DNA of 64,000 nt from Deuterostichococcus epilithicus (Eukaryota > Chlorophyta > Trebouxiophyceae > Prasiolales > Stichococcaceae). This document shows, piece by piece, positions 12,833-34,122 of this stretch (its first letter is position 1; every line of letters starts with the position of its first letter). The translations under genes and the position numbers were made by a program. The stretch covers positions 2,778,501 through 2,842,500 of the forward strand of contig JAVTLE010000005.1 in NCBI GenBank assembly GCA_033439295.1, read 5' to 3'. The notes beneath the pieces were generated by a model that was not told the origin of the DNA, did no database searches, and saw only the letters and a list, made by a program, of their open reading frames with translations.

Positions 12833-15800
12833 CTAGCCCCGCCTGCTTCTGCCACCGCCAATGCCGCGAGCCTTGCTGCCGCTGGCACCACCCCCCGTGC
12901 TGCCGCCACCGCCCTTACCGCTGCCGCCACCGCCCTTACCGCTGCCAGCTGTCTTTACGCTGCGGTTATTGTGGCCGCTGCCGCCGGTGGGCTGCCGGGC
13001 ACCTGCAGAGAGCTGCGGCTGGCTCTTCCGCCGCTTCGCCGGCGCCCGCGCAGCGTTAGGCGGCGGGCTCTGCTGCTTCTGATTGTTCAGCCGCTTGGGC
13101 GCCTGCCTGCCGCTGCCAGGCCGCGCGCCCGACCGCGGATCAGGCTCCGGGCACACCCGAGCGATGTGCCCCTGGCGGCCACACCTGCATGCCAGGGCAA
13201 CTCACAGTGCTGGGTGTGATGACAGAATGACCTTGGACCTTAGCATGTTCGACGCAACTCATGTGTTCAACACACTCTGCTGCGCAACTTGATGAAAAGG
13301 CACAAGCGCATCCCCGGCGCACCTACTGCAGAAGAATATGCCCTCGCGGGCATCACGGCACTGCGCATTTACGTGACCCTCCCGCCCGCACCTGCATGCA
13401 ACGAATCACACCAAGCCCATTGACATGACGACGCGATTGGTCGACGCATTTGCCGCGGCCGTTCTCACTGCCATTCCTGTCTCGCATGCTGAGGTCCGCC
13501 TGGTTGGCCTTCACGTTCACGACAGGCAAGGCACCAGCAGTGGGTGCGATCGTGGGAGGGCAGGCTGGGAATTCGCACCCGTCGCAGAAATTGCCGCCGC
13601 GCCGTCCCACCGTGCTGCCATCGTGCCAGCTGCCGGGCGGCCCGGCGCTGCCGTCGTCCCGCCAGCCCCCCGGCGGCGGAGGTGCTCGTCCCAGCCGTCT
13701 GGCGGCCCGTCAAACTGGGGCAGCCCCAGCGGCTCGTCAAAGCGCGGCGGCGGCGGGCGCCCCTCAAAGCGCGGGTGAGGCGGCTCGTCGTAGTGGGGCG
13801 GCCCAGGCCCCGGGCCCGGCCCCGGCTCAAAGCGCGGGTCCCGCTGCAGCGGGCCGCGCCGCCCGATGCTGCCTGCGTCTGCGAACAGTGGCCGGTCGTC
13901 GAAGTGCAGCGGCGGCCCATCGAAGTGCGGCGGCCGGTCGTCATACTGCGGCGGGCCATCGAAGCGCAGCGGCCGCCCATCGAAGTGCGGCGGCGGCCCG
14001 TCAAACCGCAGCGGCCGCTCGTCGAGGTGCGGAGGCACATCATGGCGGTCGAAGGGCGGCGAGCCCTGCGGCCCGTCGAACCGCTGCGGCGGCCCTGGCG
14101 GCCCGTCGAAGTGCGGTGGCGGCCCGCCAAAGTGGGCGTCGTGCATTGGCGCCCCATCCATGAAGTCGCCATCCGCTGCCGTGTTCACAGGCAGCACCAC
14201 GGACGTACCGTCGGCTGCATGGGCAGAACCCAGGGGAATCATGCCCTGTGGTCTCAGTCGTGAAGCTCGCTGCACCCACTCGCATGGCCAGACGCCAGAA
14301 ATGGCACATGAGCAATGGAGGGACCACACGATGTGTGAACGTGCACAGCAGGACACGGCAGGGGTCACTAAGTTCCCTGGGACACGATCGAAGTTGCCGC
14401 GCATCGCTGGGTATAGCAGTGACCGCACCCGTCTGGAACTGCTGAAAGATTTGCGGGGGAGGATCGCCGACCAGAGGCAGCCCCGCAGCGTGCTGCATCG
14501 GCCCCATATGGCCGCCGCCGCCGCCGCTGCCGAAGCCAAAGCCGCTGGCGCTGCTGCCAAACCCAAAGCCGCGCTGCTGGTGCATGTGTGGCTTGGGCTC
14601 GCCCAGGTACGCCGGCGCCTGTGGAGCGATGGACGCCAGTCTCGTCTCCTTAAGACAGCCTTGCCTTCCAGCCGGCGACATGACTTACACCAGAAGCAGC
14701 ACAATGCCCCTTGCAGTGGCATGCCATAGCAGTCCCATCGCACCAGCGCTGGTAACCGGGTGCAAGCAGGTCTGGCTTTCAGCCAGGACAGTTGCATCCA
14801 AGGATGGCGGCGGGCCTGAGAACACGGCAGGCTGCATCAGGCATGGCCTCGTGCACTATCAACAAGCGAGTGCTGCCGATGGCACAGTCCGTTCGGCCGC
14901 GGTGCTGCCTGCACATGCTGCCCTGGAGCATTTCGGGCTCGTGACGCAGGAGCCTCGGCTGCAGGAGCCCTGCAGCGCGCTGTTCGGTTGTCATCTGATA
15001 TCTGATCGTCTGACATCGGACCTCGTGCACCAGGTGTGCCGGCGGGCACTGGATGTGGTCGACCACGGCGTAGGCTGCGCCGTCCTCCCACGCAGCGTCG
15101 GCGCAGTCGTTGCGCAGCATGATGCGCAGCGGCGGCGCCACCTGCGGCAGAGCGGCGGCACCGGATCACTGGAAGCCGGAGGGCTCCAAAGAATGGGGGC
15201 ATTGCGATGGACCATGCCAGACGGCCTTGACACGACTACTGTGCACTGCGACTCGCCACCCATGGAAGACTGCAATGCCTGTCATCGACTGACTCACGCT
15301 TGCCGCAACCTTGCTGTGTCATCGTGGGCCGGATCACAGGCACAGAGCGCCACACTCGTCACGGATATCCACAGGGTGTAAGACCAGCGTTGGGGTGTAG
15401 GGTGCCGAGGCACACCTTGTTCCACGAGTCCTCCTTGAGGCCAGGAACAAAGAACACCCGGTCCGCCGTCAGCGTCTTGTTCTCGAACATGATGCAATAG
15501 CCCGGCGGCGTGACCGTCTTGGGAGGAGCGATCAGGACGATGATGCGCGGCTCGAACTGCTGCGCCGCATGCAGCACAAACTGCGGCGTGCACAAGAACA
15601 GGAGCGGTTCAGCGAGCAGCAGGCAGGGGCAGCAGGGGACGCTTGGTTCACGAGCGCCGCCCGCCGTTCGCTGCTGGCACAGCTGCTTCTGTGTCCCGGC
15701 AATGATGGCGCCGCCTCACGCACCATCGATGCTTCTGATCCGACAAAATGCCAAAACGCTTCACGCAATCTCAGAGAGCATCAGTAGAGGTGGGGCCTCC

Positions 15801-18800
15801 AGCGAGCCTGGCGCGGCGGGCACGCACCTGGTTGGCAAGGGCGCGCGCCTTGCCGAAGGGCGGGTTGAGGCCGATGACCAGGCGGTCCCCATGCGGCAGC
15901 TCCCCTGTGCGGCGCAAGCATTGCGCGGCTCACGGATGCAGGTGCTGTCCAGCTGGCTGTAGTCGGGATACGATATCTATGCCGACGCGGTCGCTGCACC
16001 TCCCCGAGAGGTCTGAGACTGCAGGCGACGTACAGTCTTGAACGATTACTCAGGAGCCGCCCTGGCACAAACATACATGGTTGCCACGTTGACAGTGAAA
16101 ACCAGACACCGGAACCATGGCGGAACGTGCGCACCGCAGCGGCACTCGAACCAGCTCTTCAGCTCGAAGTCCTCCAGGTCACGAGCCGTGAAGATGTCGA
16201 AGGCGCGCCCAAACACCTGCGCCCCGAAGGGTCCTCCAGCGCGTCAGGCAAAGGACGTCATGGCCGAGGCCAGCCAGGTGCTAACCCCGTTGGGGTTGCA
16301 TCAGCTGGTGTCAAGGTCCAATGCAGCGGAGGCCCTTGCGACAACAACAAGCTGAGGTTGTGCACCGATGGTTCGCCGCCCAGGTGCAGTGAGCTGACGC
16401 AACCAGAGCAGCTGCCACCGCCCCAACGTCCGCCCTGCGTGTCTGCCTGCGGAAACGCAGCAGCCAGCGCACCTTGATGCCAGCGCGTGCGCCCCACTTC
16501 TTCATCAGCGGCACCCACTCGTTGGCGCCGCAGGAGAAGTCGACGACGCAGTCGCTGGGCCGCATGAAGTGCTCCAGTATCTCCGCCACCGTCTGCAGCA
16601 GCCGCGTGTGCGAAAAGTGGCGCCCGAAGCTCGAGTACCTGCGCATTGACAAGTGCACGTGTTGCTTCAAGCTGCATGCACGAAGGGGTTGTTCTTCAGA
16701 GACCCTTGTAAGAGACATAGAGAAGGAGGGTGCAGTGCTGCTTTGCACTGGCGCCGGCATGCGCACTGGGCTCCGCCAAGCGGCCATGCAGCCTCGCGCC
16801 TGCTTTCAGGACGCCTGCGAAGCGGTTCTGCATCACCCTGGAATGCGGTGGCATCGCGGCGGCGTGCGCACAGGGCGGCTCACCGCTTGCCGTGCAGGAA
16901 AGGCGCGAGGAAGACCTTGTAGTCATCCTCGGAGCGGTGCATCTGCTTCAGCGTCTGGCGCGACAGCAGCAGCTCCGCAACCTCCTCCTGGGCGACGCCC
17001 GCCGCCGTGACCGCGTCCTTGAACGCCTGCAGCTGCCCCTGCGCACCCGGCACAGCTTTCTGTAGATGTCACTGACATTCATTTTGCACTGCAAACCCCG
17101 CCTGCACTAAAAGCGGCACACCGCATCCTTGATCGCCTGCAGCTGCCCCGTGTACGCAGCACGGCTGGTTCGCAGTAGCGACGGTACTTTAAATGGTACT
17201 GTAGCCCTGTAGACGGTCACTGCCCGCTGCAACCCCCCAGCTCCACACCCTCAACGCTGCACCGCCAACCCTCTGGCGAGCTGGGGGCGAGACGCATGCT
17301 GCTGTCGCCAAGCATGCTGTGGACCAGCGAGCTCGGCTGCGGGAGCAAAACCGTAAACCCAGAATGCCCCACCTGGGTGAAGGCCTTCTTGGCAACCTTT
17401 TCGTAGCCCTGGATCTTCCGGATCCTGTGCTCCAGCTGGTCGAAGCTGATAGATCCCGCCGCCGTGGCGATCACGCTCTGCACGCCCACCACCACCTGCG
17501 CCCACGGTGGGGTCTCGGGTCAAGGTGTGGGTGTGGAGGCTTGGACAAAAGTCGTCAGGATGGGAGGACGCAATAGAAGGAGGGTAAAGCAAGACTGCAT
17601 CGCCAGCACCTGTCATCTGGCTGCGGCGCAGCTGACCATGTTTGTTCAAGCGCTTGGACCTTGAAGATTGCCACTTCCCTCAAAATGTCCCAAAATCGCC
17701 CAGAGCTGCGCGGCGATGTGCAGACCAGGTCACAAGCAGCACTGCACAACAGCTTGTGGAAGTATTTATTGCACACCTGCTCCTCGTCCAGGTCGTCATC
17801 GGGGTCGTCACCCAGGAAGTCAGCAATGGCCTGTTCCTCGGCCGCGTCCACACCAGCCGCCGCCTCTGAAGCGACCGCGGCGGGCGCCGCCTCCGCTTTG
17901 TGTTTAACTGCCTCTGCTGCTGCTGCCGATGCCGCTGCTGCCGCTGCTGTGCCTGCCACACTCTCGTCGTCTGGCACGACGGCTGCGGCCGCTGATGGCG
18001 ACGCCGCCGCGACGCCGCCGAAATCGCCTTCGTCAAAGTCCGGCAGCACGTCTGCCACCTCTTTTGACGGCTCGGGGGCCAGCGCCCTGCCTGCTGAGGC
18101 TGTGGCGCCTGAAGGGCTGGCGGGCTGGGCTGCTTTGAGGGGCCGGGCCTTGCTCTGCGGCGTGAAGGGCTTGTGCACCTGCACAGGATGGCACACAAAG
18201 GCGAATTGCACTCCAGGGGATGCCCTCAACCGACCTGGTGACACAATGGTGGGTAGCGGTAGGCTGCTGGTGAGGCTGCCCATCATGTGAGGCTGGAGCT
18301 ACCTTGGTGCCCAGCAGTGTTTGCAGTGACACAGATGGCACAACCATTATAGCACGAATAGCACAGCGGCAAGGGCGTCCCACGACGAGCAAAACCAGCC
18401 AGCAGAGCCCAGGCTTTCAAGGCGCAGCACCTCTGCGCGGGGCGTCCTGGGCACCGCTGCCGTTTCGACGGCCACCCCAGCAAGGACGCGCCGCTGTCGG
18501 ACGGCTGCGCAGCCGGAGACGGCGCCGGTTGGCCGGTGCCTGAGGTCGCAGCGGCGGCAGCATCGTCATCGCCCGCCGCTGCCTTGCGCTTCCTGGGGGA
18601 TCCGCCCGAGGAGGCACCGGCAGCCTGGCTGCTGGGCGATGCAGCCGGGCGAATCCTGGGGCTGGCAGAGGGCGCCGCTGGCCGCTGTGGTGATGTGACG
18701 GCCTGCAGGCTCATGCGGCGCATGCCAGGCATTCTCGGTGGTGTTGAGCACTAGTGAGGACAATAGAGCGCAGAGAGGCGGCAGCAGGCGCCAGCACGCC

Positions 18801-20776
18801 AAGGCAGCATCAGGCGGCAAGAGCATTGCTGCGGCTTGAAGATGGCGCAGACGTTAACAGATAGATTGTAATTCAATGAGCGGCTGAGCGGCTGTGGGTG
18901 CCCACCCGCTTAGCCTTGCGGGCCAGCAGTGTCTCCTTCAGCGAGAGGACCGCACTCTTGTCACTGTCTGACCCCGCCTCATCTGCCGAGGCCACCTGCG
19001 CCGATGCGGCGCTGCCTGCGGGGTGCGCTGCAGCCGCAGGCTGCTGCGCTTCTGCTGCTGGAGCCGCCCTAGCCGAGTCCGCTGCCAGCGCCTCCGCAGC
19101 CGGCCGCTTGGGGGCCTCGGCTGACGCCGAGATGTCAGGCGCGGCCGCCACGCGGCATGGCCGGCAGCCGGATCACCAGACGTGGCTTTGACGCGGCAGG
19201 CTGCTCAGACGACTTAGCCGCCGGCGACGCCGTCAGCGACGCCACCGCCGCCGCCACTCCCGAGCCAATACCGGGCCGGTCTGGGGAGGCGGGCGTCGTC
19301 GTCGAGGGTCGCCGCTTCGGCGACAGCGCCGCGGCCACGGTCGAGCACTGCGCTGCCTGCTGCGCGGCCGCTGGCGTGGTCGTCTTGGCGATTGCCGCAG
19401 AGGTGGCCTGTGGGTGCACAAGGTCTTGCATCAAGCCCTTGTGACCTGGGAATGGCTGCAAACTTGTAGGCTCGGTTTGTATGGTGCGTGTGTATGGTGC
19501 ACTCCCGAATACACTATGATTTGTGGTTGAATATCAGCCATGCTGCGGTATCAGGCCTGAGTCCTCTCGCTGACAGCACAGATGCAGTGCTGATGCGTGT
19601 GCTCACCTGCGCCCGGCTGGTGGAAGACAGCAGCTGCCGCTTGGCCATGGCCGCCCGGCTCGCCAGCGGCAGGTCGTCGTCATCAGACAGCGCCGACGCC
19701 GCCTTGACTGCCGCGGCTTCCTGCAGCAAGTGAATTGTTGGATGCATCAAGCAGAAGGCAGGCATGCTCAGACAGGCTGTTGTTCCCGATGTCGCTTCTG
19801 CTGCTCGACATGTGCACAATCAAGCAGCATTGCAGCAGGCAACGCACCCACATGTATATATCTGACATCCGGTCTCTGACATGCTGTCCATCCAGGCAGG
19901 TCGCAACGCCCAGGGCTGCTGCAAGCTAACAGAACTGCTGCCAGGGTTGCAGCCAAGCCCGGAGCCGGCCGGCAGCGGCGGTGCTGCCCCGGGAGGAACG
20001 AACCTGGCGGCGCGCCTCTGCCTGCAGCACCGGCTGCGAGGAGGCCAGGCTCGCGTGCTGCTGCGCGTAGTGCAGGCGCCAGGCCGCCAGCTGCGCCGGG
20101 GTGAACAGCTGGTAGGGGACCTTGTCGGGGCGGACGTGCGCCGGCGCCAGCTCGTGCGCGCGGATGCGGTGCTTGAAGCAGTAGATCAGGGAGCTGTCCA
20201 CCTCTCTGTCCTCCAGCAGCTGGCCTGGGGGGGCGACGGGAGCCCGACATTGGTTGGGGTCACCCCAGGGCGGCTGGTGTTCGGGCGGTGCTGGTGACGG
20301 GCGACCAGCGGGGCTGGGCACACGATGCCTCAGGGGCCAAGTTGAACGGTTTGTACAAGGTCCCAGCGCGATGATATGCGAGAGGCGCACCCAGCTCAGC
20401 GCCCTGCCATGATAGACCATGCACGCAATCGGCATGCCAATCAATCCCATCAGTCAGACCGGGGCACGAGAAAATCTGTCAAAAGAAGCCGCTCGAGGGC
20501 CGCATTCAACGGGTCGCCTCCTGAGCACGCACCGTCGTCGCCGCGCGGCGCGAGCCAGAGGCGCTTCGGCAGCAGCTCGGGGTCCAGCAGCCGCGGCGGC
20601 AGGCAGGCCTGATGGTACGCGAGGGGGCAGCGTCGGCAGGGCACCATCTCTGTCACTGTGCCCGGCCGCCCCAGCGGCAGGTTGCACTCAGGCCGCGCGC
20701 ACGTATGAAGCGGGCTGCGCGCACATGAAAGCACATCGTGTGGTCAGCCCTTCTCGTGGCAAGAAGGGTCCTTCCC

Positions 20777-20825
<49 letters not shown>

Positions 20826-23038
20826 CGTGTGGTGTGCATCAGTTGTGCTGAGGCAGGGACGCGGGAACTGCGAGCTTTCCGCCGAGACAAGGGAGGGTGC
20901 CGACGCTGAGACCAAGCAACCTGATCGTGCAACACATGGCAGGCTCGCCGTGGTGGCCTTGCAGGGGCGGGCGCACCAGATGTAGCCGGCGCCAGACTGC
21001 ATGTCCTCGGGTCGCTGCTGCACGCACGCTGGGTGGTAGTGCTTCCCGCAGCTCGCCACTGCGCAGCCCAGCCCAGCACCGACCTTGCTTGAATCATGCC
21101 CTCAATTGCGGCTCCAACTACAACCTCAAGCTGATCTGCATCTTGGTGCAGTGTCTGGTTTGCGGCACGGCTTGCTGTCAGCCAACGAGCAAAGAAAGCA
21201 TGTCGAGTGCAGGTCGAAGGAGAGACGCGCACCTGCGCAGCGAAAGACCTCCTGCTGCTCCGCCTGGTCACGGTCGGAGGTGCCGTGCTTTTTGCACACG
21301 AAGCACTGGTGCCGCTTCGCCAGGCAGCTGGGGCAGAGGAATGCGTCAATGGAGCCCTGCGCAGTGGTTACCGGGATTGTCAAGTGGGTTGACGACATGG
21401 TGCGACACGGACACCGGTCGTGTCAGGACGCCAGCGCCTCAGTTCAGCAGGTGTCCCTGCGGGTAGGCTGATTCACATTCATGCGAGTATGCTGTGTCAA
21501 ATGACCTGGGCTCGATATCAATCAGGAATGACTCTCTGTGGCACCGGGCACCTGGATGCGCTCGAACAGGTCGGCGGGCACGCAGATTGGGTTGCAGCCG
21601 CCGTCCTCGTCGGTCTGCACGTGGAAGCCGCGCATGCAGGTGCCGTCGCACAGCAGCAGGTCGCCGCCGTCGTCACACCTGCAGGGAAGGCGGGACATCA
21701 TGCCGTGCGCCAGCCTACTTTCCCTTCGACTTGAGACGGCTGGCTGTCACACGCGTCCCAAGGAGCCCTGCCCGCTGTTGGCCGTATGTTCGGGCGATGA
21801 AAGTAGACTTAAGTCAATTTTGAATGTGAACGAGGATTGTCACAGGATGGAGAAATTCAACGATGCCGCACCAGGCGCATTGGTTCTCGTTGGCGCGCTC
21901 GTCCTCCTCATCGCTGTCGGATGCAGAGTCGTCTTCCCCCTCGTCCGCGCCTGTGCATGGCGAAAATAAAACCCCTAGGCACCCAGCTCGGACCGGGCTC
22001 CCAGTGCTCATACATGTAGACGTCAATCACACGGACAGCCCTCCTCAGCTGCCATGCCATTGCAGCGAGCAGGTCTTGAGGGCTGCCTCTGAGGTAACAT
22101 TCTTCTGTCTGGTTTTGCACTTCAGCCGAGCAGGTGTGGTGTGCTCAGTTCATGGCCTGGGTGGGAAGGGAGGCACTAGCAAGTTCCGCACCTTGGAAGT
22201 CGCTGAGGTCTGTAGACATGGGTCCTGCAGCTGCAGGTCGCCTTGAGCGAATGAGAAATCTTCACGGCTAGGGACGGGGGCTTGCTGTGCAGCCCTGAAG
22301 CCCGATGGATCACACAACACAACGCACACAAAGAACGACAGATCTCAAGAACCTTCAGTCATTTTGTGCGGTGCACTCACACACCTCTGGCCGCCCGGAC
22401 GGCCCAGTCAGAGGACTTTGACGTGCGCCCTGCCTGCTGACGAAATGAGATGGAGGCCGCATAAGGTCATGGAACACCAGCTTAGGGCACCTCGTTGGCC
22501 AGTAACCAACGCTGGTGCAGTACTGAGGCATTCGGCTGCGACATGCTTCGTGTGCGTATGTCGATGCATGCATCCAGACTGATGTGCGGTCTGCTGACAT
22601 GCGCATATCAGGAGGGGTTGGGAGGCCCGCAATTGCATAATCAAGCGAAAGGGTCACCCTGAGCTGCGGCGTGGTAGACCGTCGCCCGAGCGCAGACACT
22701 GAGGGACCATCGTCGACGCCTCCGGTCCGGCTGCTGTGCGTTGTCCGGCCCATCTCACCTGCCGCATCAGGATCGATGCCAGGGAAATGACGCGCGTCCG
22801 TGCGGCGCTCTGACAGCTGCCGGTCCCTGCCGGCTGCATGCGCGCTGTCTCCTGCGCTGTCCCAGCTGCCAGGCACCCTGCCGACGGCGCAGGCCGGCAG
22901 ACCGTGGTGGTGGTCTGGCGTCCCACTGTGTCGCCGAGGCAGCCGCAGCAGGATGTCATCAGAGTCAGACTCTGAGGGCGTCACTGCTGCGGGCCCGGCC
23001 GCAGGCCTGCCGAGCCAGTCCGACGAGTCGCTGTCCAT
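12833..23038 (-). CDS. EDM2: EDM2-like PHD-finger / methyltransferase-like protein, copy A
   Basis: A long many-exon gene. The N-terminal acidic exon is 22759-23038 (MDSDSSDWLG). The PHD cluster spans 21872-21950, 21552-21678, 21233-21356, 20977-21058, 20533-20713 and 20004-20224 (CDDGGDLLLCDGTCMRGFHV, CPSCLAKRHQCFVCKKHG, VASCGKHYHPACV, CRRCPLAYHQACLPP, SSLIYCFKHRIR). A disordered Ala-rich linker follows (19607-19720 and on to 17777-18178). The methyltransferase-like part uses exons 17373-17495, 16884-17059 (FLAPFLHGKR), 16473-16638 (YSSFGRHFSHTRLL, VVDFSCGANEW), 16135-16216 (VFGRAFDIFTARDL), 15828-15904 (LVIGLNPPFGKARALANQ), 15416-15580 and 15031-15141. This order is that of plant EDM2, a nuclear chromatin protein. 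The tail (12833 to about 14620) has glycine-rich and FDGPP repeats and two CCHC knuckles. Linker exons near 19150-19190 and the frame near 13690 are unresolved. Confidence 0.85.
13330..13590 (-). CDS. Two CCHC zinc knuckles at the C-terminus of EDM2-like A
   Basis: Splicing GACGG at about 13572 to the acceptor near 13395 gives FCDGCGREGHVNAQC, a Cx2Cx4Hx4C knuckle. The next junction (after 13330) joins FFCSR to CGRQGHIARVC near 13180-13140, giving a second knuckle. A basic tail follows (APAKRRKSQPQ) to the stop at 12833. Knuckles of this kind bind single-stranded nucleic acid. This entry marks part of the copy A gene, not a separate gene. Confidence 0.7.
13690..14200 (-). repeat. FDGPP-type repeat tract in EDM2-like A
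   Basis: Read on the minus strand this stretch gives more than a dozen degenerate units of the form HFDGPP, RFDGPP, HFDDRP or HYDEPP, ending near FDEPLGLPQFDGPPDG. It encodes a low-complexity Pro/Asp/Phe-rich segment between the methyltransferase-like part and the zinc knuckles. At DNA level it is a diverged GC-rich tandem array with a unit of 15-30 bases. Confidence 0.8.
20777..20824. repeat. (GGCT)12 microsatellite in an EDM2-like A intron
   Basis: Twelve perfect GGCT units lie in the intron between the PHD exons 20977-21058 and 20533-20713. Confidence 0.95.
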
Positions 23039-23113
23039 TGGATTCCTTCACCAACTTATTGATTCTGCTGCCTGTTGGTGCCACATCATGTGCTGCCGGC
23101 TTGACGGCCTGGC

Positions 23114-23153
<40 letters not shown>

Positions 23154-24127
23154 CATCATCATCCTGCTTTGAACTTCAGCCCTGCCACTATGCATTGCTT
23201 GCTCAGGCTGGGCAAGCTGACAGGCTGTGCATCCTGTTGTGCGGCAACGGTCATGGAGATCATGACAGCAGCGCCTCAGCTGTGCATACTCGGCATGCCA
23301 GCGCATGCTAGGAGCCCGAAGATGCGCTGATTGGTCAGGAACCGCCTGCCTAGCTGCGCCGAGCGATTGCGCTTGCGCCGTTGATGCTGTCAAGAAGCGT
23401 TCAAGACAACCTGTCCCGCTATACACAAAGATTCACCACCGATGTGCAGTGATGGTCCGAAGGACCCAGTATGCACTGGACAATCCCGGCCAGCTCTGCG
23501 GGGACGACACTGGATGGTCAGTCCGATGCTTCGGATCGGCGACCTCGTCGCCGAGCTGCTGCACACCGGAGCATGCAAGTGCTGCTGATTTTCAGACACT
23601 GGACAGAGATTGATCAGGCGCCGCAGTGACAGGGTTCAAAATTTGGGTTCGCTGCGACACGCCTTATTGTCACTGCGCTTCTGCGCTGTTAGTACTTAGA
23701 TGTCTCCATGGACGGTATGAGAGCTGCTCTGAAGTCAGATTTGCAGCACCTGGCCAATGCGATCAACACTAAGCTCGCCGTTTCAGAGGAGGCTGTTTAG
23801 CTAGGCCGCTGAGTTTGCGGGGTGTCTCGCTGCCTGCAGTGCCAGGGGTCGATTCCTGAGCCGTTGTACCAGCAGTTGATGAAGTGCAGCTTGGCGAAGG
23901 CCAGCTCTCTGGGCAGCCGATCTGGCAGCTTTGTGCCTCGGCCCCCTCTCCTCTGCCCTCAGGTGATTCTCTGCCCTCAGGTGATCGCGGGTGGTCGATC
24001 GACTAAGCGCAATTTCCAGCTGTTGGGGCTTTGTCACAAGCAGCGGCCACGATCTAATGCCTTTCCTGGGCTTCAGGCCGCACGCAGGCCGGGAGTCGGT
24101 AGACGGCAGGTGCACACCGCCATTGCG
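23039..24127. promoter_or_regulatory. Divergent intergenic region, EDM2-like A / PGP phosphatase
   Basis: About 1.1 kb between start codons pointing apart. It contains a (GCT)n tract with one interruption at about 23112-23153, followed by a short CAT run. No ORF in it resembles a known family. The EDM2-like start at 23038 is inferred, so part of this may be its 5' UTR. Confidence 0.4.
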
Positions 24128-26486
24128 ATGTCCCACCCGGCCTCGCCGGATGAGCTGGCGCAGGCGCCGCCCTCAGCCCCACCGCCGGTGAGTGATTAGA
24201 CGACTCGGGCTGCTGCAGTCGTCTGCATGCTTGCCCCAATGCCAGCTTTTCTCATGAGGACATGGGGATGATCGATGGACCAAGGCACGATGACCTGGCA
24301 CTACAGGAGCAGCGCACCCGATGGTGGCAGAAGGTGGGGCAGAGCGTCAACATGGCGGGCGTCAACCTCTTCCTGCACGTGCGAGGGGTGAGCTGCTTTT
24401 GCACCCCTTGTAGACGCTGCAAAGCCGTTGTATCTTCCTCATGGTGACATGTGAGCCCTCAGACCCATGGGGCAACACCCGATCCCGGATCAGCGATCAT
24501 CAGCCGAGGCTGCACGACACGGCTGAGAGGCGACTCCATGGACGTCCAGGGTCACGAGGAGCTGGCGATCCCGCACGTGAGCGTGCCAGACATCCGGTGG
24601 GTGGATTGGCAGGCGGTGCGACGGGCGGGCTTCGAGGGCGCCGCGTTCGACAAGGACAACACCCTCACGCTGCCATACATCGAGAAGGTGGGGCGTGCAG
24701 CATGCATCGTCTCGTCGCAGCATGCATCGGATCTCTGCGAGGTGATTGGTAGTGTAGGAGCAGGGCTGCAGATCTCCTGGTGTTGGAAGGCCTCAGGGCG
24801 CGCTCCAGCAGCAGTTGTCTGGATCATGGTAGAGGTGTTCAAGGAGATGTCGAACCGCACAGTGCTGTCCCCCAGGTGCATCCGGAGCTGCAGAAGTCGC
24901 TGGAGGACTGCAAGAAGGCCTTTGACGGCAAAGTCTGCCTGTTCAGCAACTCGGCGGGACTGGAGCAGTTTGACCCAGAGGGTGCGCGCGTCGCGTCTTA
25001 TTTCCTGGAACCCAATGCAACCATGGTGTGAAATCGACCGGCCAGTGGCGCCACCGCCGTGCCCACCGCTGCATGAAGGTATCTGGCACCGTCAGCGCCA
25101 GGCCAGCGGACGGCCTGGTTCGGCCGTGCTGTCCCCGGTGTGCAGAGTGGCGTGCAGCCTTCGAAGCTGGGCTGGCCGTGCTTGCACTGGTGCTGAGAAA
25201 CGGAACACATGGCAGCGTTCCCATATTGGGACACGAAGCCCACCCGCATAGATTGTTGCAGGCAGGATGGCGGAGAAGCTGGAGGGCTGAGTTGGGCATG
25301 CTGGCGGTGGCATGTGCGAGTAGGGTCCTGGCAGCATGGTCACACACACTCGACTGGAGTGGCATCTGTGCTGCGTGTGTTCACAGGCAGGGTGGCGGAG
25401 AAGCTGGAGGCGGAGCTGGGCATCCCGGTGCTGCGGCACAGCGAGAAGAAGCCCGCCGGCGGCCCCGAGGACCTGGAGAGGCACTTTGGGTGCGCACCGA
25501 TCGCACTCGCATCGTCACTGCAGTCACTTCGACACCGGACCATGGCTCGCAAGGCCGGCGGGATGTCGGGCCTGATGGACGGAGGCGGGCTGCTGCCGTG
25601 CATGGCTCGTGGCCCCCCCGCGTGTGCTCACAACTCGCGGCGGCAGTCAGGCCAGGCCGCTGTCCCCGCACCTCGGCTGGCCTCTGACGCCCCAGCAACC
25701 TGCACCATGCCCACAGCATCAGGTTCCCTGGCTCTCTGTATCAGCTCTGTAGCAACCAACGTAATCCGAGACGCACGAGCCGCTCGACTGCGCAGGTGCA
25801 AGGCGGAGAGGCTGGTAATGGTGGGCGACCGGTACATGACGGACGTGGTGTTTGGCAACCGGCTGGGCATGATGACCATCCGGCCGGCGCCGCTCACCTG
25901 GGAGGGCGACCCCTCCACCGTGCGCATGGTGAGACGAATCGTTTCCACTAGTGCATTGGTGGAATGATGGTACAGCAGGCAGCGCTGTGCCATTTCGCTT
26001 GCAGCGGCACAGCTTCGCACACCCCAGTCCTGTGACATGCACCCTCGCTGAAGTTGATGCATCCGGAGAATCAGCCCAGCATCGGCTGGCCCCGATTTAC
26101 CAGACCTCATGATCATGGGCTTAACTCGACGAAACGACTGCTGTGACGCAGTCGAGGAGGATAGAGGAGCGATATGTGCGGCAGTGGACGAAGCGCGGCG
26201 TGCAGGTGAGCACATCACAACAGCTTATGGTTCAGCATGCCAACTGCATCTTTCTAGCCAGTTGAGCCAATTCGCAGCCGCCCAGCAACAGGAATGGGCT
26301 GACCTGCGGTGCGCCGCTGTTGACGACATACCGGCTGCCTCTGTGGCCATGACGAGCCCTGACGGTCTCTGTGGCGCCTGGCTGCAGGCGCCGAAGCATC
26401 GCCTGGTGCCGGACGCAGCGACGCTGGCCACCTTCGCCAGGAAGCCGCACGACGGCTTGCAGCAGAAAGAAGAGGCAAAGAAGTGA
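24128..26486 (+). CDS. PGPP1: Phosphatidylglycerophosphate phosphatase (GEP4/PGPP1-type HAD)
   Basis: Exons: 24128-24187, 24307-24387, 24550-24687, 24876-24981, 25387-25489, 25796-25928, 26152-26205, 26388-26486, all in phase. The enzyme dephosphorylates phosphatidylglycerophosphate to phosphatidylglycerol, the last step of PG synthesis in plastids and mitochondria. HAD motif I is AAFDKDNTLTLPY with both catalytic Asp residues; motif II is CLFSNSAGLEQ; motif III is the Lys in SEKKPAGGPEDLERHFG; motif IV is VMVGDRYMTDVVFGNRLG. The lead-in AIPHVSVPDIRWVDW matches plant PGPP1 and yeast Gep4. The N-terminus (MSHPASPDELAQAPP) is Ala/Pro-rich but not a clear transit peptide. An apparent extra copy of the fifth exon lies in intron 4. 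Confidence 0.92.
25258..25310 (+). pseudogene. Decayed duplicate of PGPP exon 5 inside intron 4
   Basis: Right after a GTTGCAG acceptor-like site, the segment from 25261 reads GCAGGATGGCGGAGAAGCTG, then a stretch ending TTGGGCAT, closely matching the start of true exon 5 at 25387. The copy carries a TGA in the frame of the real exon, so it cannot serve as a simple alternative exon. Spacing between the copies is about 124 bases. Confidence 0.7.
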
Positions 26487-26794
26487 ACGCATGGACGCTT
26501 GTTTAGCAAAGGAATGTTTAGCGCGTCTGAGAGGGGGGAAAGGGGGGGAGATATTGCCACATGATCTGGGTGTCGATGTGCTGGTTTGACGTGAAGTTTG
26601 GGCTTGCTTTGTGTGTTCCTACATCATGTCCGGCAACGATCTCATGGAACACTGAACCCGCTGCTCCGCTGCACACACCTATGTACACCTGCTTTTGATA
26701 CTTTGCCGTACCTCTTGCACACCAGCCGTGAAAATTAATCCCATGACGACTGCCACGTTCCTGGACTTGCACCGAGGGCGGCTGAACATCCCCA
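26487..26794. other. Convergent 3' intergenic region, PGPP / EDM2-like B
   Basis: About 310 bases or more, depending on which stop ends copy B. It includes a G-rich run at 26533-26549. Nothing coding seen. Confidence 0.4.
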
Positions 26795-29700
26795 TCACTG
26801 CCGCCTGCGTGGGTCTTGCGAGAGCGACGGCGGCATCGACGCGCTGCCCCGCAGCGCCGGCGCGGCGTGCCGAGCATCGCACCCAGGCTGCAGCGACGCA
26901 CTACCGCGCAGCGGCTGCGGCGCCCACCCATTGCCGGCAGGAGGCAGGCCACCGCCGCCAGGCCACGCCGCCGTCATCGTCTGCTGCCCGGCGGCTGCAA
27001 AGTCGCCGCTGAAGCCGCCGTCACCGTCATACAGCCCAGGCGGCTGGATGGGCATGAGGGTGCCATGGGGGCGGACCGGCGGCGCTGAGAGGATGGACAC
27101 CACGTGGTATCGGCCCCGTCATGGAAGCTTTTGCGGGCGCAATCCTGGCGCACGAGGATGCGCAGCGGCGGCGCCACCTGGGGGATCAGAAAATGAGGTG
27201 TCTGTGGTGACGATTGGCAGTGCCTTTTGGCACAAAAGGACCGAATGCCCAACGCAAAATTGCATTTATGTGCACTAAGATGGGGCTCGTGCACTGGATT
27301 TGAATACAAACTAAGAGCAGTGCACTGGACTAGGTACCTCTGCAAGGCTGATTTTTGACAGCAATCGAATGAACGACGTTGAGTCCCTGGCAGGCCGAAA
27401 GGTCGCCACGAACCCATGCTGCGTGATCATAGCAGTACCTTGACGTCTCACTGATGCACAAGCTGGAGCGCAGTGTGAGAGCGCGCCTTGTTCCAGGAGG
27501 CCTGCTCGGTGCCAGGCACGAAGAACACCCGGTCCGCCGTGATGGTACGGTTCTCGTACACGCACAGGTAGCCGTCGGGCACTGCGCAGCGGTCAAAGGG
27601 GGGTGGCTCTTGGATCCAGAAAGGACCATGCGACGTTTTCAAGCGGCGGGTCCGGTTTAAGGAGCAGTAGCCAGTCGACCGCAAAGGGGCTTGAGGCGGG
27701 CAGGGGTCTGCCTGAGCTGGTGTACATGAGCGCTACCCACTTGCTTGGCAGCAGCGAGACACAGCTCATCAAATGAATTCTCATGGAGCACATCAGATGC
27801 AGCATGCATGACTGTTCTGCCCTACAGGCGAACTGTGCCATCTCAGCACGGAGCGTGCTTGCATAGGATAAGCAAAGTGAACCACACCAATTGTCTCCGG
27901 CGGTGCCAGCACCACCAGGACGCGCGGGTTGAACTTTGCCGCATGCATCACAAACTGCATCCGGGAAAGCAGGCACCTCAGCGTCTGCACGTTCCGCACG
28001 ATTCTGTGCACGGCGTCAGAATTCCTTCAATGTTGCAAAGCAATGTTCAGTCTTCTCATCGGCTGAAGAGGATGAGCGTGCGGTGACCTTGTTGGCGAGG
28101 GCGCCCCTGACGCCAAACTGCGTGGCAATAGAGCGTCGTGTCAACTGTGCAGCTCGTTCCTGGCAGCGCAGCAGGACGGGCACCTTGCCTTGCACAGGTG
28201 CATGTACACGATTTGCACAGGTTCTCATGTCGAGCACGCGAATGTGAGGCAGGCCGATCCAAGAGCTCCAGATGGGACCAGAAAGGGCAGCCTCACTGGC
28301 GGATTGAGGCCGATCACCAGCCGGTCGCCGTGCGGCAGCTCCCCTGCAAATGACACGAACATGCAGCCTCTGGTTCAGCGCTTATTGATCAAGCACGTCT
28401 GTGCCATCCGCCATTGCTTCACAACTACAAATTAGACAGTGGCAACAGTGTGTTCTGACCCGTGTGTTGCAGCGCACCTGGCTGCACTTGGAACCAGTTG
28501 CGGCACTCGAAGTCCGTCAGGTCCCGGGCGGTGAAGATATCGAAGGCACGCCCAAAGACGTGGATGCCATTGGCGGCAGCAAATTCCTGCGATCGTAGTT
28601 CACGACTCCGCTCCAGCGAGGGTCCATCGAACAGGCACTATCCGAACACCCGCAGCAACGGTCTGAGGCGGCTGCTGATGTCTAAGAGGAGCAGGGCAGG
28701 GGGCGCCACCTGGCGCGCACCTTGACGATCGGCACGAATGCGTTTTCTCCGCAGCTGAAATCCACGATCACCTGCAGCAGCATCGGGGCGAACGTTTCCA
28801 GCGTGCGTAAATGATCTATCAAGCAAGCGCGGACATGTATTGGCGGTGTCTCATGTTGAGCGCTGCTCAGCCTGATGCGCAATGACAGTCATGCGTGTGC
28901 GTCATCTGGCCCTCGCCTCGTGCTGTGCGCAGCCAGGAGAACCAACAAGGTACTCACGTCGTTCGGTCGCAGGGCGTGCTCCAGCACGTTGGCGATCTGG
29001 CGCAGCAGCCGTTTGCTGGAGAAGTGGCGGCCATAGGACGAGTAGCGGTTGCCGTGCAGGAACGGCGCAAGCATGATATGTAAGTCCTCGCTGATCCTGC
29101 GGGCGTCGGTGCAGTGACCATGCATTTGCAGTTCGGGCTGTGCGCTGCAACATGCTGAGGCTCACAGGCATGCATGCACCTGGCGCTCGCACCTCGGCAG
29201 CTGTGGGCTGTGCCAGCATATCAGAGGGCGACTAAGTTCAGGGCGGCATGCATGAGCTCGCAGAGAGCATGCCTGACAATCCGCGGCAGCAGATGCTAAA
29301 ACCCACTGCAGGGCCGGAGCTGAGAGCTGATGTGAAACTTGACAGACCTGTGCATGTCGTTCAGCGTGTGGCGGTCCAGCAGCAGGCCGGCCTGTTGGGG
29401 CCTGCGCTCCGCCGATTCCACCGCCTTCTGCAGCGCATCCAGCTTGGACTGCAGCGAAGATGAAAGCAGGTTCACAGATCCATCACTACTTTGCGAGTGC
29501 AACGTTGCTGCACGCATTCAGCCAGGGTTGCTCCTGCGTGGACACATGCCATGCTGGCGCTGCCTCACTGCCCGCAGCCATCCATACCACAGTGTTGTCG
29601 TGGCATGGCCTTCGCCAGCGTCGCCAGCTAGGTGTGCACCGCGTCATGGGTCCACCTTCCACCCTGTGCAGAGGCACAGCGGGTGTCGGGGGCGTGACGT

Positions 29701-32700
29701 GCCTGCATGACGGTCCGCTTGGCGATGGCTTCGTAGCCCTCGATGATGCGGACAGAGCGCTGCACGTCCGGGACGCTGATAGTATGGGAGGCCGCCTCGA
29801 TGTAGCTTTGATCTGCCGCTGCACCGCCCCCGCGTCGGCGCTGAGGTCCTCGCCCTCCCAGACTGCGCGTGCAGCCCTCACAGCGGGCTTGAGTGAAGAT
29901 GATCCGCGTTCACCGGATGAGCAGCGCTGGCCAGCCAAAGCGACGTTGTGCTGTGCCACCTCGACATCATGCTCGGTGGGAGATGCCTGCGGAAAGGTCA
30001 TCAGTGACACCAGACAGAGGACTGCAGTAGCCTCACCGTCCAGCTCGCCCTCCTCGGAAACGAGGCACTGCCACACCGGCGCTGCAGGAGGGCCGCTCTG
30101 CGAGCTGTCTGCTCTGGCCAGCGCCACTTCAGACGGCGGCAGCGGCGACGGCGGCGGCTGGACCGAGATCAGCCCCGTCGGCGGGGCTGAGACCAACAAC
30201 CTGCCGGCCGCCTCGCTGCTGGCGCCGTCCTCCGCCTTTGACGCCCGTGGCAGCGGCTCGGCTGCCGCCGCTGCGGGCAGCGCAGCCGATGCCGAGCCGC
30301 CAGGGCGCTGCGGCGCCACCGTAGCAGCAGATTCTAGCTTCACAGCTGGCAGATGGCCGGGTTCCTGCACGAGCTGCGGCAGCGGTGGCAGCGGCGCAGG
30401 GAATCCTGCCGGGGACGGCTGCTGGGTCTCCCCTGCAGACGTCTCGCTGGAGGCGGCCAAGTGGACAGAGTCTTCTCCGCTGAGCTGCAGAGCTTCCTGT
30501 GCCATGGCCTGCGGCTTGCTGATCGGGGGCGGCAGCTTGATGCGCAGCAGGCCAATGGTCGACTGCGCGCCCGCCGCCGGTGCCGCAGGTGTCGAGGCAG
30601 CAGACGCCGTGCCATCAGCTGCTGCTGCCGACGCGTGCTGCGCGGATGCGGCGGGCTCGCCTGCCTGCGCGGCTTCCGTAATGGCCGCCTGCAGGCGGCG
30701 AACCAGCGACGAGGTTTCCGCAGACGCCGCTGGCGCAGCGTCGTGCCCGGCTGTGGCGCGGCCTGCCAGGGCTTTGGGCGCCGCCTCGGGCGGTGACGAG
30801 TCTGCCGCCGCGGCTTGTCTGCTGGGGCCCGAGCTGGAGCGGCCCTGCGGCCCGACCGCGGTGCTGGCCACGCCACCGCCGGCGTGCAGTGCGAGCAGCC
30901 CGGCTGCAGGCGATGTCGTAGATGGGCTGGCACTGGAGGCTGCGGCCGCCAACGCCGAGCGCTGCAGCTGCTGACGCGCCGGCGTACGCTGCAGCGGCTG
31001 TTGCTGCTGGTCTGCTGGAGTCTGGCCGGATACTGCCAGCTCTGACACCCGGTGCTGCCGCATCTGTCGAGCTGTCTCTTGCTTGTCTGCTGCAGTCTCC
31101 TGCTTCACTGATGCAGGCCCAGGGAGTGGCTGGGGGCGGGCTTGAGTGACTGCCGACACAGATGGCATGCTGTCCTCCGGCTCGCTCGCAAGCGACGGAG
31201 CTGCTGCTGCCGAGGCCGAAGCTGACTGCCGCTGTCGAGCAGGTCTGGTGCTAGCCTGTGCGTCGGCTGCGGGTGCTGTCCGAGCTCGCGCCGTCTAGCG
31301 TCGTGACACAGCAGGTCGTCATGCTCGGCTGCTCGGAAATTATTTGTGGCCCAATTGTACCAGCTAAGATCCTGCACAGTGGAGCATGCGGCCTAACAGC
31401 GGCCACACGCATTCAAGAGTGCGGGCATTGGCAGCAGTCGCCGCTTGAAATCATTGCGAAAGCAGCAGCGTGAGACATGAGCACCTGCAGAATATTGGCT
31501 GATGACGGCAGGCCTGGGTGCTTTTCCGCATACCTGTGTGACGTAGGTGACTGTGTCTCAACCCAATTATCAGAAGCATTCTAATCTCTGTTGCACTGCA
31601 TCCAGCTGCCAATGCATGCACACACAGGAGTGCACCCAGTAAAACCTTGCACATACGCCAGGGCGGCGTGCAGCAGCACAGCATGCCCAGCACCTGTGGC
31701 GCCAGGAGCGTAGCAGGCGTTCCGAGAACAGCGGCGCGGTGGCGGGCCGCATATCGAAGTCGTGCTTGAAGTGGTGCTTGCGGCAGAAGATGACCGACTG
31801 CGCCACCTCCGAGTCCGGCTGCAGGCGCCCTGATTGAGTCAACAGCAGGACGAGATGGTCACCAGCACTCAGTACAAGGTACATATGCAAGGCAGGTTTG
31901 ACAAAGGCTCGCCATCTCCCATAATGTGCACCCTCTGCTGCGAAGGGGGTGCTCGACGAGAGCTGCAGCCGCACCCGCGACGTCGCGCTTGGCCAGCCAC
32001 ACCCGGCGGGGACGGCTGTGCTCGTCGCCCAGCTCGCCTGGGATACACTTCACGTGGAAGGCCTTGGTGCACAGGCGGCAGGTCACCAGCTCGTCCATTG
32101 TGCCCGCCTGGCCGGGCGCCCCACCGCAGCGCTTGCACTCGTGCAGCGGGCTGCGGGAGAGGACGCAAGCAGCAGGTCAGCTGTGGCAGAAGAGAGATAT
32201 CTCCAGAGGCAGCAGCAATGCTGACATACGGGAGGACCGCTGCTGTCCACTTCACATACTGGAAGTGGCGGACGGAGCACAGGAGAAACATACGTGTTCT
32301 GTGCGAGAAGTCGACGAGGCCGCGCACCAGATGAGGGCGTCCATGGCATCCCGCTTCAGCTTGAGACATCTGGGATGGTAGAAACGGCCACAGGACGCCA
32401 CTGCGCACCTGCCCACAGCGCATGAGGTTCTCAAACTTATGAGGTCCGTGGTTCTATGCTCACTCACAGCGTAAGCCTGATCTTTGTGACATTTTGAACA
32501 AGCTGGCCATTGCAGCTGGATATCAAAGGCTTATTGAGAAAACATGATTCTCTGCTTTGACATTTGAAGGACAAGACTGGATGGCAGGTTGTGAAGCCGC
32601 CAGCGTCTGCAATCGTAGGACGCACTGGAACACCACGGGCTCGGCGTCGCCGTCGGCGGCGGCGGCCGTGCCCTCCTTCCGGCAGACGAAGCACTGGTGC

Positions 32701-33414
32701 CGGCCCGACAGGCACGCTGGACAGGTGAAGGGATCAACCGTGTTGTCCTTCAGCGTCTGCAGCAGGTCCTGCACAGCACCGGCGGCATGAGCAGGTTACG
32801 CGGCCGTCACATCGTGAATGGGTGGTTGCACGCCAGGACCGTGACCGTGCGGCATGCGTGCGAGGTCTTCCTCAGATCTTCTCGGATCTGGCTCCGAGGT
32901 GTGTTCACGAGCACTGCAGGGGGGATCGCATCGGAAGCAGCAATGCTATGCATGCAGGAGTGGCATCGCCCACAGCTTCCAACAAGAATGCTGCGCGACA
33001 CCGCACGCTATGAACTTGTGCGCTATCAGAACATCTTTTGGATTCTGCATCCTACCTCTGGAATGGACAGCACATTGCACCCCGAGTCCCCGCCTGTGTG
33101 GAAGCTCCGCATGCAGCCGCCGTCGCACATGAGCAGTTCCCCTGCGGCAAGCAATATCATGCACCAGTGACCAGAGCGGCAGCGTCACCTGGCAGCAACC
33201 TGCCTGTCACCTTCATTTCACCTGCCAAGCTGTGTATGGTAAGCCCACCTCCGTCGTCGCAGGCTGCGCAGAGCAGCTCGTTTGCCCTTTCGTCCAGGTC
33301 ATCTCCACTCGACCCGTCGTCGTCCGAGCATGCACCTATGCTCACGCCTGCGTCCGCCTCTGTCATCTCGATGTCTTGAGTGAAGGTCAACGCCAGGCTC
33401 TCCTCCATCTGCAT
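26795..33414 (-). CDS. EDM2: EDM2-like PHD-finger / methyltransferase-like protein, copy B
   Basis: Paralogue of copy A on the same strand. Exons (minus): 33249-33414 (start MQMEESLALT, DERANELLCAACDDGG), 33056-33141 (GELLMCDGGCMRSFHTGG), about 32622-32768 (CPACLSGRHQCFVCRKEG), 32328-32400 (VASCGRFYHPRCL), 31975-32150 (CPLHECKRCGG, CRLCTKAFHVKCIPG), 31694-31829 (SVIFCRKHHFKHDF), a long disordered linker exon 30037 to about 31150, 29703-29812, 29348-29448, 28958-29096 (LAPFLHGNRYSSYGRHFSSK), 28721-28771 (VIVDFSCGENAFVPIVK), 28478-28586, 28297-28343 (GLNPP), 28088-28117 (FGVRGALANK), 27888-27954, a block near 27480-27620 (TADRVFFVPGTEQASWNK) and one starting at 27177 (VAPPLRILVRQDC). The C-terminus is short and unresolved (stop at 26795 or 26974), without the knuckles of copy A. 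The exon near 32622 lacks a clean donor in the expected phase. Confidence 0.84.
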
Positions 33415-34122
33415 GCAGATAGTGCTTCGGTATTGGATGCGCTGGTATGTGTGCTGGCCGCGGCGAATTTGATCCGGATTGGACGACTTCTGCGGAGTGT
33501 TTCAGTGTCTGACGAAGAGTACTGAATATCGTATCAGCACGCACACTTCATCGATGCTATTTGAGATATATGCAAGAGTCTGCCGTCAGTCCAGCAACTG
33601 GGATGCACCACATGCATTCACTTGCCGCTACAAGCGCTTTTCCCTTGGCAACGGGCATCACGAACTTCCGTTAATTGACCAGAGTTCTGTTTGCAGAGCT
33701 GTTCGAGGGGCTTCACGCGGACGTCGGCAACATCGAGATGTGCACACCGCTTGCAACCATTTCAACGCGCACCTTTCTCGAGCGCGCTGACGACACAAAG
33801 CAGAAAGCAATCTGGGATAACGAAGGCGAAGCTGACTGAAGATCAAGTGAGCGGCTCTGGCTTTCGCGAGTCTGGGTACAAGGCTAGTCTGGGACGAGAA
33901 GAAAGATGGTCGTTTCACTGCAGGGCGGCTTGTGCAGCTTACGAGATTGCAAATTGCAACTGCTACAGTCGTCGCATCTCTTGCAGTCTTGCTCGTTAGG
34001 CCATTTCTTGCATTGTCTGCATGGGTTTGACGGATACGAATCCTGTCACCTTGTGCTGGTCGCTGAGTCAGTTTCGCCGCACCCTGGCTGTGTCAGCCCA
34101 TGAGTCCGTCGCAGAGACGAAA
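33415..34122. promoter_or_regulatory. Divergent intergenic region, EDM2-like B / ZC3H3
   Basis: About 700 bases between start codons pointing apart. An in-frame ATG at 34021 could extend the ZC3H3 protein upstream. No other coding similarity. Confidence 0.4.

Follow-up and report, generated by a model that had tools for sequence, protein, structure and literature searches.

Two putative EDM2-like genes that join PHD fingers to an adenine-methyltransferase-type block in a green alga

We analyzed a window of 64,000 nucleotides from the green alga Deuterostichococcus epilithicus (C5:2778501-2842500, where C and a number denote a contig of the assembly, which comprises 46.8 Mb in 21 contigs) and found that it contains two genes, hereafter A and B, which, as judged from sequence, very probably belong to the EDM2-like (ELP) family and arose by an ancient duplication. 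The region concerned, positions 12833-33414 of the window, is bounded on one side by the last base of the final stop codon read for gene A and on the other by the ATG with which gene B is taken to begin. Gene models were obtained by reading the minus strand in three frames and joining exons where the splice sites preserve both the frame and the similarity between A and B. The two genes share a common layout, namely an acidic start with a DERANE motif, three PHD fingers of the NSD/EDM2 type, a disordered linker and a C-terminal block with the motifs LAPFLHG, PFLHG-(K/N)-RYSS(F/Y)GRHF, DFSCG, GLNPPFG and TADRVFFVPG. An earlier note on this DNA had described two genes close by on one strand with the same block order, and the models bear this out: the named features are present, each gene is encoded on the minus strand and both proteins contain DERANE. 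An EDM2-like identity is the best reading of A and B because their PHD fingers include the C4HC2H type, a SET match is absent and the C-terminal block carries motifs of the adenine methyltransferase type.

The PHD clusters lie in the 5΄ parts of the genes (A, 20004-22219; B, 31694-33414; both minus strand), as determined from the spliced models and Pfam. PHD_NSD was matched above its cut-off in A (3.1e-17) and B (5.4e-15), as was PHD (A, 2.3e-10; B, 8.3e-11); PHDvar_NSD passed its cut-off in A (5.9e-7) and did not in B (3.2e-5), and PHD-1st_NSD remained below its cut-off in both. The zinc-ligand patterns of the two proteins are alike, with C4HC3 in finger 1 and C4HC2H in fingers 2 and 3; for the first cysteine pair of finger 3 in B, two readings are possible. 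Both proteins therefore contain the atypical PHD repeats with a final histidine that characterize the NSD/EDM2 type, and in EDM2/NSD1-type proteins the last cysteine of the C-terminal finger unit has been described as replaced by histidine, giving C4HC2H (PMC3776765; papers are cited by PMC identifier, and statements taken from them refer to the parts of each text that were covered). A joint PHD profile of A and B was searched against the PDB, and among the 26 sequences listed, NSD2 ranked first (1.7e-14), followed by NSD3 (2.7e-7). The earlier note had regarded best matches to unrelated PHD families as evidence against its assignment; the nearest solved relatives are instead NSD2 and NSD3, and EDM2 itself has been reported to resemble NSD1 (PMC3776765). 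None of the 16 SET matches in the genome (E-value up to 0.001) was located inside the window. Four of the 14 PHD_NSD matches in the genome passed the cut-off, two of them in A, one in B and one on another contig. The last belongs to a third NSD/EDM2-type PHD pair (C9:1612970-1613161; PHD_NSD, 1.9e-9), at which none of the 16 SET matches was found and no methyltransferase block was detected by tblastn in the 15.5 kb read there.

The C-terminal blocks (A, 15022-17495; B, 27112-29818; both minus strand) resemble N6-adenine methyltransferases of the ELP type. A run of 18 residues, GELPHGDRLVIGLNPPFG, is identical in the two blocks. Likewise identical in both copies are DFSCG and, following it, NPPF, an order that fits N6-adenine methyltransferases with (D/N)PP(Y/F); we take DFSCG to be the S-adenosylmethionine (SAM) motif I and NPPF to be the catalytic motif. 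Five Type II methyltransferase models of PADLOC matched one or both copies, the best at 0.0013 (PDLC03255, in B), and PDLC03256 matched both, in A over residues 182-223 including NPPF (0.0096). Among the PHROGs, phrog_5172, whose function is unknown, matched both copies, in A again along this NPPF stretch (best, 3.7e-5), and phrog_799, a DNA methyltransferase, matched one copy (0.041). The blocks resemble the Type II (adenine) DNA methyltransferases that belong to restriction systems in that a SAM-type motif is followed by NPPF, but they differ from these in being fused to PHD fingers. Short-peptide contig scans, which reach fairly close relatives only, confirmed no relative of the block in viral contigs, prokaryote genome contigs or phages, and a viral or bacterial origin of the block was rejected on this ground. 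The MT-A70 family (METTL3/14, AMT1) likewise consists of adenine methyltransferases, but the block has no MT-A70 match in Pfam (E-value up to 10); elsewhere in the genome, MT-A70 gave nine matches at four places.

We compared this set of parts with what has been described for land plants. EDM2 is reported to comprise PHD repeats, acidic stretches and a methyltransferase-like domain, their order being unstated (PMC7529245), and all three occur here within one protein, in B as one open frame and in A with a linker that is modelled in part. The land-plant EDM2/ELP proteins (Arabidopsis EDM2 and rice OsEDM2L) are alike in their C4HC2H-ended PHD repeats, acidic stretches, putative N6-adenine methyltransferase-like block and lack of SET; A and B differ from them in their green-algal host and in forming two diverged neighbouring copies. 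Gene A moreover seems to add two zinc knuckles and a Gly/Lys-rich end, neither of which is known to us from plant EDM2. When an approximate plant EDM2-like fragment of 208 residues, written out with the window proteins already known, was aligned with A, 37% identity over 194 residues was obtained, which serves as a lead and not as a test. The three-way alignment gave 64% between A and B and 37% between A and this fragment, the pattern expected for sister algal paralogues, again as a lead only. Green algae have been said to lack EDM2-like proteins (PMC2956552, published in 2010, before most algal genomes), and the C-terminal extension was described there as specific to eudicots. In contrast to that statement on green algae, our results suggest that the EDM2-like gene family may predate land plants. 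In the partly covered literature that was searched, we found no report of an algal EDM2, which is not proof of absence, and the parts covered of a paper on N6-methyladenine across eukaryotes (PMC12695648) do not mention EDM2. Algal members may already have been listed by others in present orthology databases.

Several observations weigh against this interpretation. The plant comparison uses an approximate fragment in place of a deposited EDM2 sequence, and the PHD fingers by themselves do not define the family, because the locus on C9 has similar fingers without the block. The block matched the PADLOC and PHROGs models only weakly and over short stretches. No methyltransferase family of Pfam or NCBIfam matched the block below 0.1; Methyltransf_23 reached 0.18 and was equalled or surpassed by unrelated families (Xre-like-HTH, 0.056; Plasmid_RAQPRD, 0.057; pyrE_Therm, 0.11), and a search of the block profile against the PDB returned rows at chance level only, the best at 0.37 (ribosomal protein S4). 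The motifs by themselves are no proof of activity, and the apparent shifts of frame described below, one in each tail and one in the linker of A, bear on the full-length intactness of the genes. The claim of the earlier note that both genes are EDM2-like accordingly stands as regards the C4HC2H fingers, the missing SET match and the adenine-methyltransferase-type motifs, and is weaker as regards the plant comparison. Taken jointly, the family identity and a methyltransferase-type domain that has stayed functional in one or both copies appear reasonably probable.

We next consider the relationship between the two genes. BLASTP comparison of A with B gave 46% identity over 233 aligned columns in the PHD part and 57% over 272 in the C-terminal block, in line with the earlier description of the copies as diverged. 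The local alignment scores were 559 for the PHD part and 836 for the block, compared with maxima of 69 and 53, respectively, among 500 shuffles each. Within these two aligned blocks, A has 12 introns and B has 14, of which six agree in place and phase, so that there are 20 distinct positions; because only 6 of the 20 are common, the comparison suggests that a gene already containing introns was duplicated long ago and that many intron changes followed. The age of the duplication, like the frame changes described below, goes beyond what the earlier note had remarked. A recent tandem duplication was excluded on the basis of these identities and shared intron positions, and a retrocopy on the basis of the many introns in both genes. 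Nonsynonymous (dN) and synonymous (dS) divergence by the NG86 method was 0.48 and 1.06 in the PHD part and 0.39 and 0.58 in the block; these ratios are not low, but since GC at third positions of the exons is 0.85-0.91 (intron GC, 0.56-0.62), the dS values are untrustworthy and no claim is built on dN/dS. When the block of A was compared with the six-frame translated genome (E-value up to 10), only the best candidates being scored, all 14 matches fell within A and B, seven in each, and no further copy of the block was seen.

Gene B extends on the minus strand from a putative ATG at 33414 to approximately 26800, with 939 open codons over 17 exons down to 27112. Six exons (33414-33249, 33141-33056, 32768-32626, 32408-32328, 32150-31975 and 31829-31694) encode the acidic DERANE segment and the PHD cluster, and a single exon of 1208 bases (30037-31244), open in phase with both neighbours, encodes the disordered Ala/Gln/Ser-rich linker. 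The block is read from exons 29818-29703, 29448-29348, 29096-28958, 28771-28721 (DFSCG), 28586-28478, 28343-28297, 28117-28088, 27954-27888, 27581-27487 (TADRVFFVPG) and 27177-27112, the intron between 28297 and 28117 splitting GLNPPFG between NPP and FG. The introns in the modelled blocks of A and B are all GT-AG, apart from two in B that seem to use GC as donor; one follows 29703 and the other 27487, and for the second a GT donor 27 bases on is an alternative. Near 27112, beside runs of G and past the methyltransferase block, there is an apparent frame change, beyond which a Gly/Pro-rich tail (26798-27111, minus strand) was read in another frame by three-frame reading. A 571-residue open frame rich in Ala, Gln and Arg (34000-35715, plus strand), without a Pfam match, is divergent from gene B.

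Gene A extends on the minus strand from a putative ATG at 22219 to a last stop codon ending at 12833. Its acidic DERANE segment and PHD cluster, supported by GT-AG splicing, Pfam and the zinc-ligand patterns, are encoded by exons 22219-22192, 21950-21872, 21678-21552, 21356-21233, 21058-20977, 20714-20533 and 20224-20004. The disordered linker (17496-20003, minus strand) comes from three-frame reading; exon 19720-19607 was modelled and was the part covered by the Pfam scan, and the stretch 19607-17495 is modelled only in part, with an apparent frame change near 19.15 kb. The block consists of exons 17495-17373, 17038-16884, 16638-16473 (RYSSFGRHF, DFSCG), 16216-16135, 15904-15828 (GLNPPFG), 15580-15416 (TADRVFFVPG) and 15141-15022. 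The tail (12833-14618, minus strand) begins with a Gly/Phe-rich exon (14618-14429) and FDGPP-type repeats (~14.2-13.58 kb); near 13670 an apparent frame change, like that of B beside runs of G and past the methyltransferase block, shifts the tail into another frame. As seen by eye, Pro/Gly-rich tails occur in both genes, in B only in another frame and in A partly beyond the frame change. The changes near 13670 and 27112 may be assembly errors.

The end of gene A comprises an exon ending at 13579 and exons 13391-13323 and 13184-12833, which supply the Gly/Lys-rich end and the final stop codon. Splicing of these three exons in one frame (positions 13634-12833) forms two perfect CX2CX4HX4C zinc knuckles, and this strict pattern has zero unspliced occurrences in the six frames of the window. 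The Pfam model zf-CCHC matched the tail at 0.0014 (19.1 bits, below the cut-off of 20.8), and no zinc knuckles were seen in the tail of B by eye in the three-frame reading. If the knuckle exons belong to A, which hinges on the frame change near 13670, gene A would have a nucleic-acid-binding end. Upstream of gene A, a 230-residue acidic open frame (22358-23047, minus strand) without a Pfam match may represent either an additional 5΄ exon of A or a gene of its own.

Plant EDM2, a nuclear protein, influences dimethylation of histone H3 at lysine 9 (H3K9me2) as well as the silencing of transposons, and it favours full-length transcripts from genes whose introns carry H3K9me2-type marks (PMC7529245, PMC11265718). 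According to reviews, OsEDM2L is needed for N6-methyladenosine (m6A) and also for EAT1 splicing and polyadenylation (PMC9990323, PMC9342612, PMC11286456). A and B are probably chromatin proteins, presumably located in the nucleus, whose NSD-type PHD cluster would read histone H3 tails and whose C-terminal block would be a SAM-dependent domain of the N6-adenine methyltransferase type, with SAM binding, catalysis and substrate predicted. The most likely action would be chromatin-guided m6A formation on nascent RNA, or the assembly of processing complexes, at silenced transposon-bearing introns; this would alter splicing or the choice of poly(A) site, an effect that EDM2 and OsEDM2L are reported to have in plants. 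In the most economical version, both proteins would read histone tails through the PHD cluster and would methylate, or would once have methylated, adenine in RNA near marked chromatin. An active methyltransferase seems somewhat favoured, and RNA as its substrate is suggested more tentatively.

At two or more places in this genome, SRA and SET matches lie on one strand within ~5 kb (C3:951284-955735 and C12:367482-372444), and these probably are SUVH-type H3K9 methyltransferase genes; cytosine methyltransferase matches occur at one or more places (C12:1612012-1615257). Because SRA and SET matches adjoin at two places, H3K9 methylation probably exists in this alga, and the SRA/SET and cytosine methyltransferase matches together suggest that the marks with which EDM2 works may exist here.

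The strongest competing explanation, to which we give a clearly smaller chance, is that the block is EDM2-like but that catalysis was lost or never present in one or both copies, the proteins serving instead as scaffolds by which RNA-processing factors are held at marked chromatin. This would agree with the weak library traces of methyltransferase families and with the description, in the literature covered, of Arabidopsis EDM2 effects through H3K9me2 and poly(A)-site choice. However, DFSCG and NPPFG are identical in both copies despite an overall identity of 57%, which speaks for selection on the catalytic centre, and loss of OsEDM2L is stated in a review to reduce m6A in rice (PMC9990323). 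Another possibility, which we consider rather unlikely, is that one copy is decaying, the apparent shifts of frame (near 13670 and 19.15 kb in A, near 27112 in B) being genuine mutations rather than errors of the assembly. The two GC donors in B could be read in the same way, but open frames, splice sites, zinc ligands and motifs are kept in both blocks, B is open for its 939 codons, and the changes in the two tails both follow the methyltransferase block and adjoin runs of G, at which long-read assemblies often err.

Other explanations concern descent. In algae, an NSD-type PHD protein might have been fused, in an event of its own, to an adenine methyltransferase unrelated to that of EDM2; such convergence would be favoured by the use of an approximate fragment in place of a deposited sequence in the EDM2 comparison and by the protein at C9:1612970, in which a PHD pair of this kind occurs without the block, but we consider it improbable, since the set of parts equals that described for EDM2 in the texts covered, the approximate plant fragment aligns across the whole block with the same motifs (as a lead only), and the viral, prokaryote and phage collections, scanned for close relatives with short peptides, left no donor in sight. 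That A and B are NSD-family histone methyltransferases can be set aside almost entirely: their PHD cluster is homologous to that of NSD1, NSD2 and NSD3 and is nearest to NSD2 and NSD3 among solved structures, but the window contains no SET match, and a different C-terminal block is present instead.

If A and B are ELPs, as we favour, the family would already have existed in the ancestor that land plants share with green algae, or would have been transferred between the two groups, and controlling plant immune receptors was probably not its original role. We put forward, with considerable reserve, the broader idea that the EDM2 system is older than land plants, and that an algal PHD chromatin reader with a working N6-adenine methyltransferase, anciently duplicated and with A gaining zinc knuckles, might represent a histone-guided m6A writer on nascent RNA that preceded the plant-immunity role. 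The two copies, together with the SRA/SET places and the cytosine methyltransferase place, offer a system in which to ask whether RNA, DNA or neither is the target of the methyltransferase-like domain.

Between A and B lies a PGP phosphatase gene on the plus strand (24448-25964, the extent of two open reading frames matching PF09419 at 1.7e-5 and 1.2e-12), so that the intervening phosphatase on the opposite strand, which the earlier note had described, was recovered. Inversion, insertion or movement may each have produced this gene order. Its description of the host as a green alga fits the plastid contig, C21 (211,271 bases), on which we found the RuBisCO large subunit and one full-length and two partial PsaA/PsaB-family matches. 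The full-length match is PsaB according to PDB matches (best rows 9kqp, 6igz, 9mgw and 6qph); among the PsaB matches, we take 6igz to be from a green seaweed and 6ijj from Chlamydomonas. The two partial matches (C21:139151-142539), probably psaA, are ~1.2 kb apart and contain stops within the matched stretches, and for these reasons an intron or insertion probably splits the gene.

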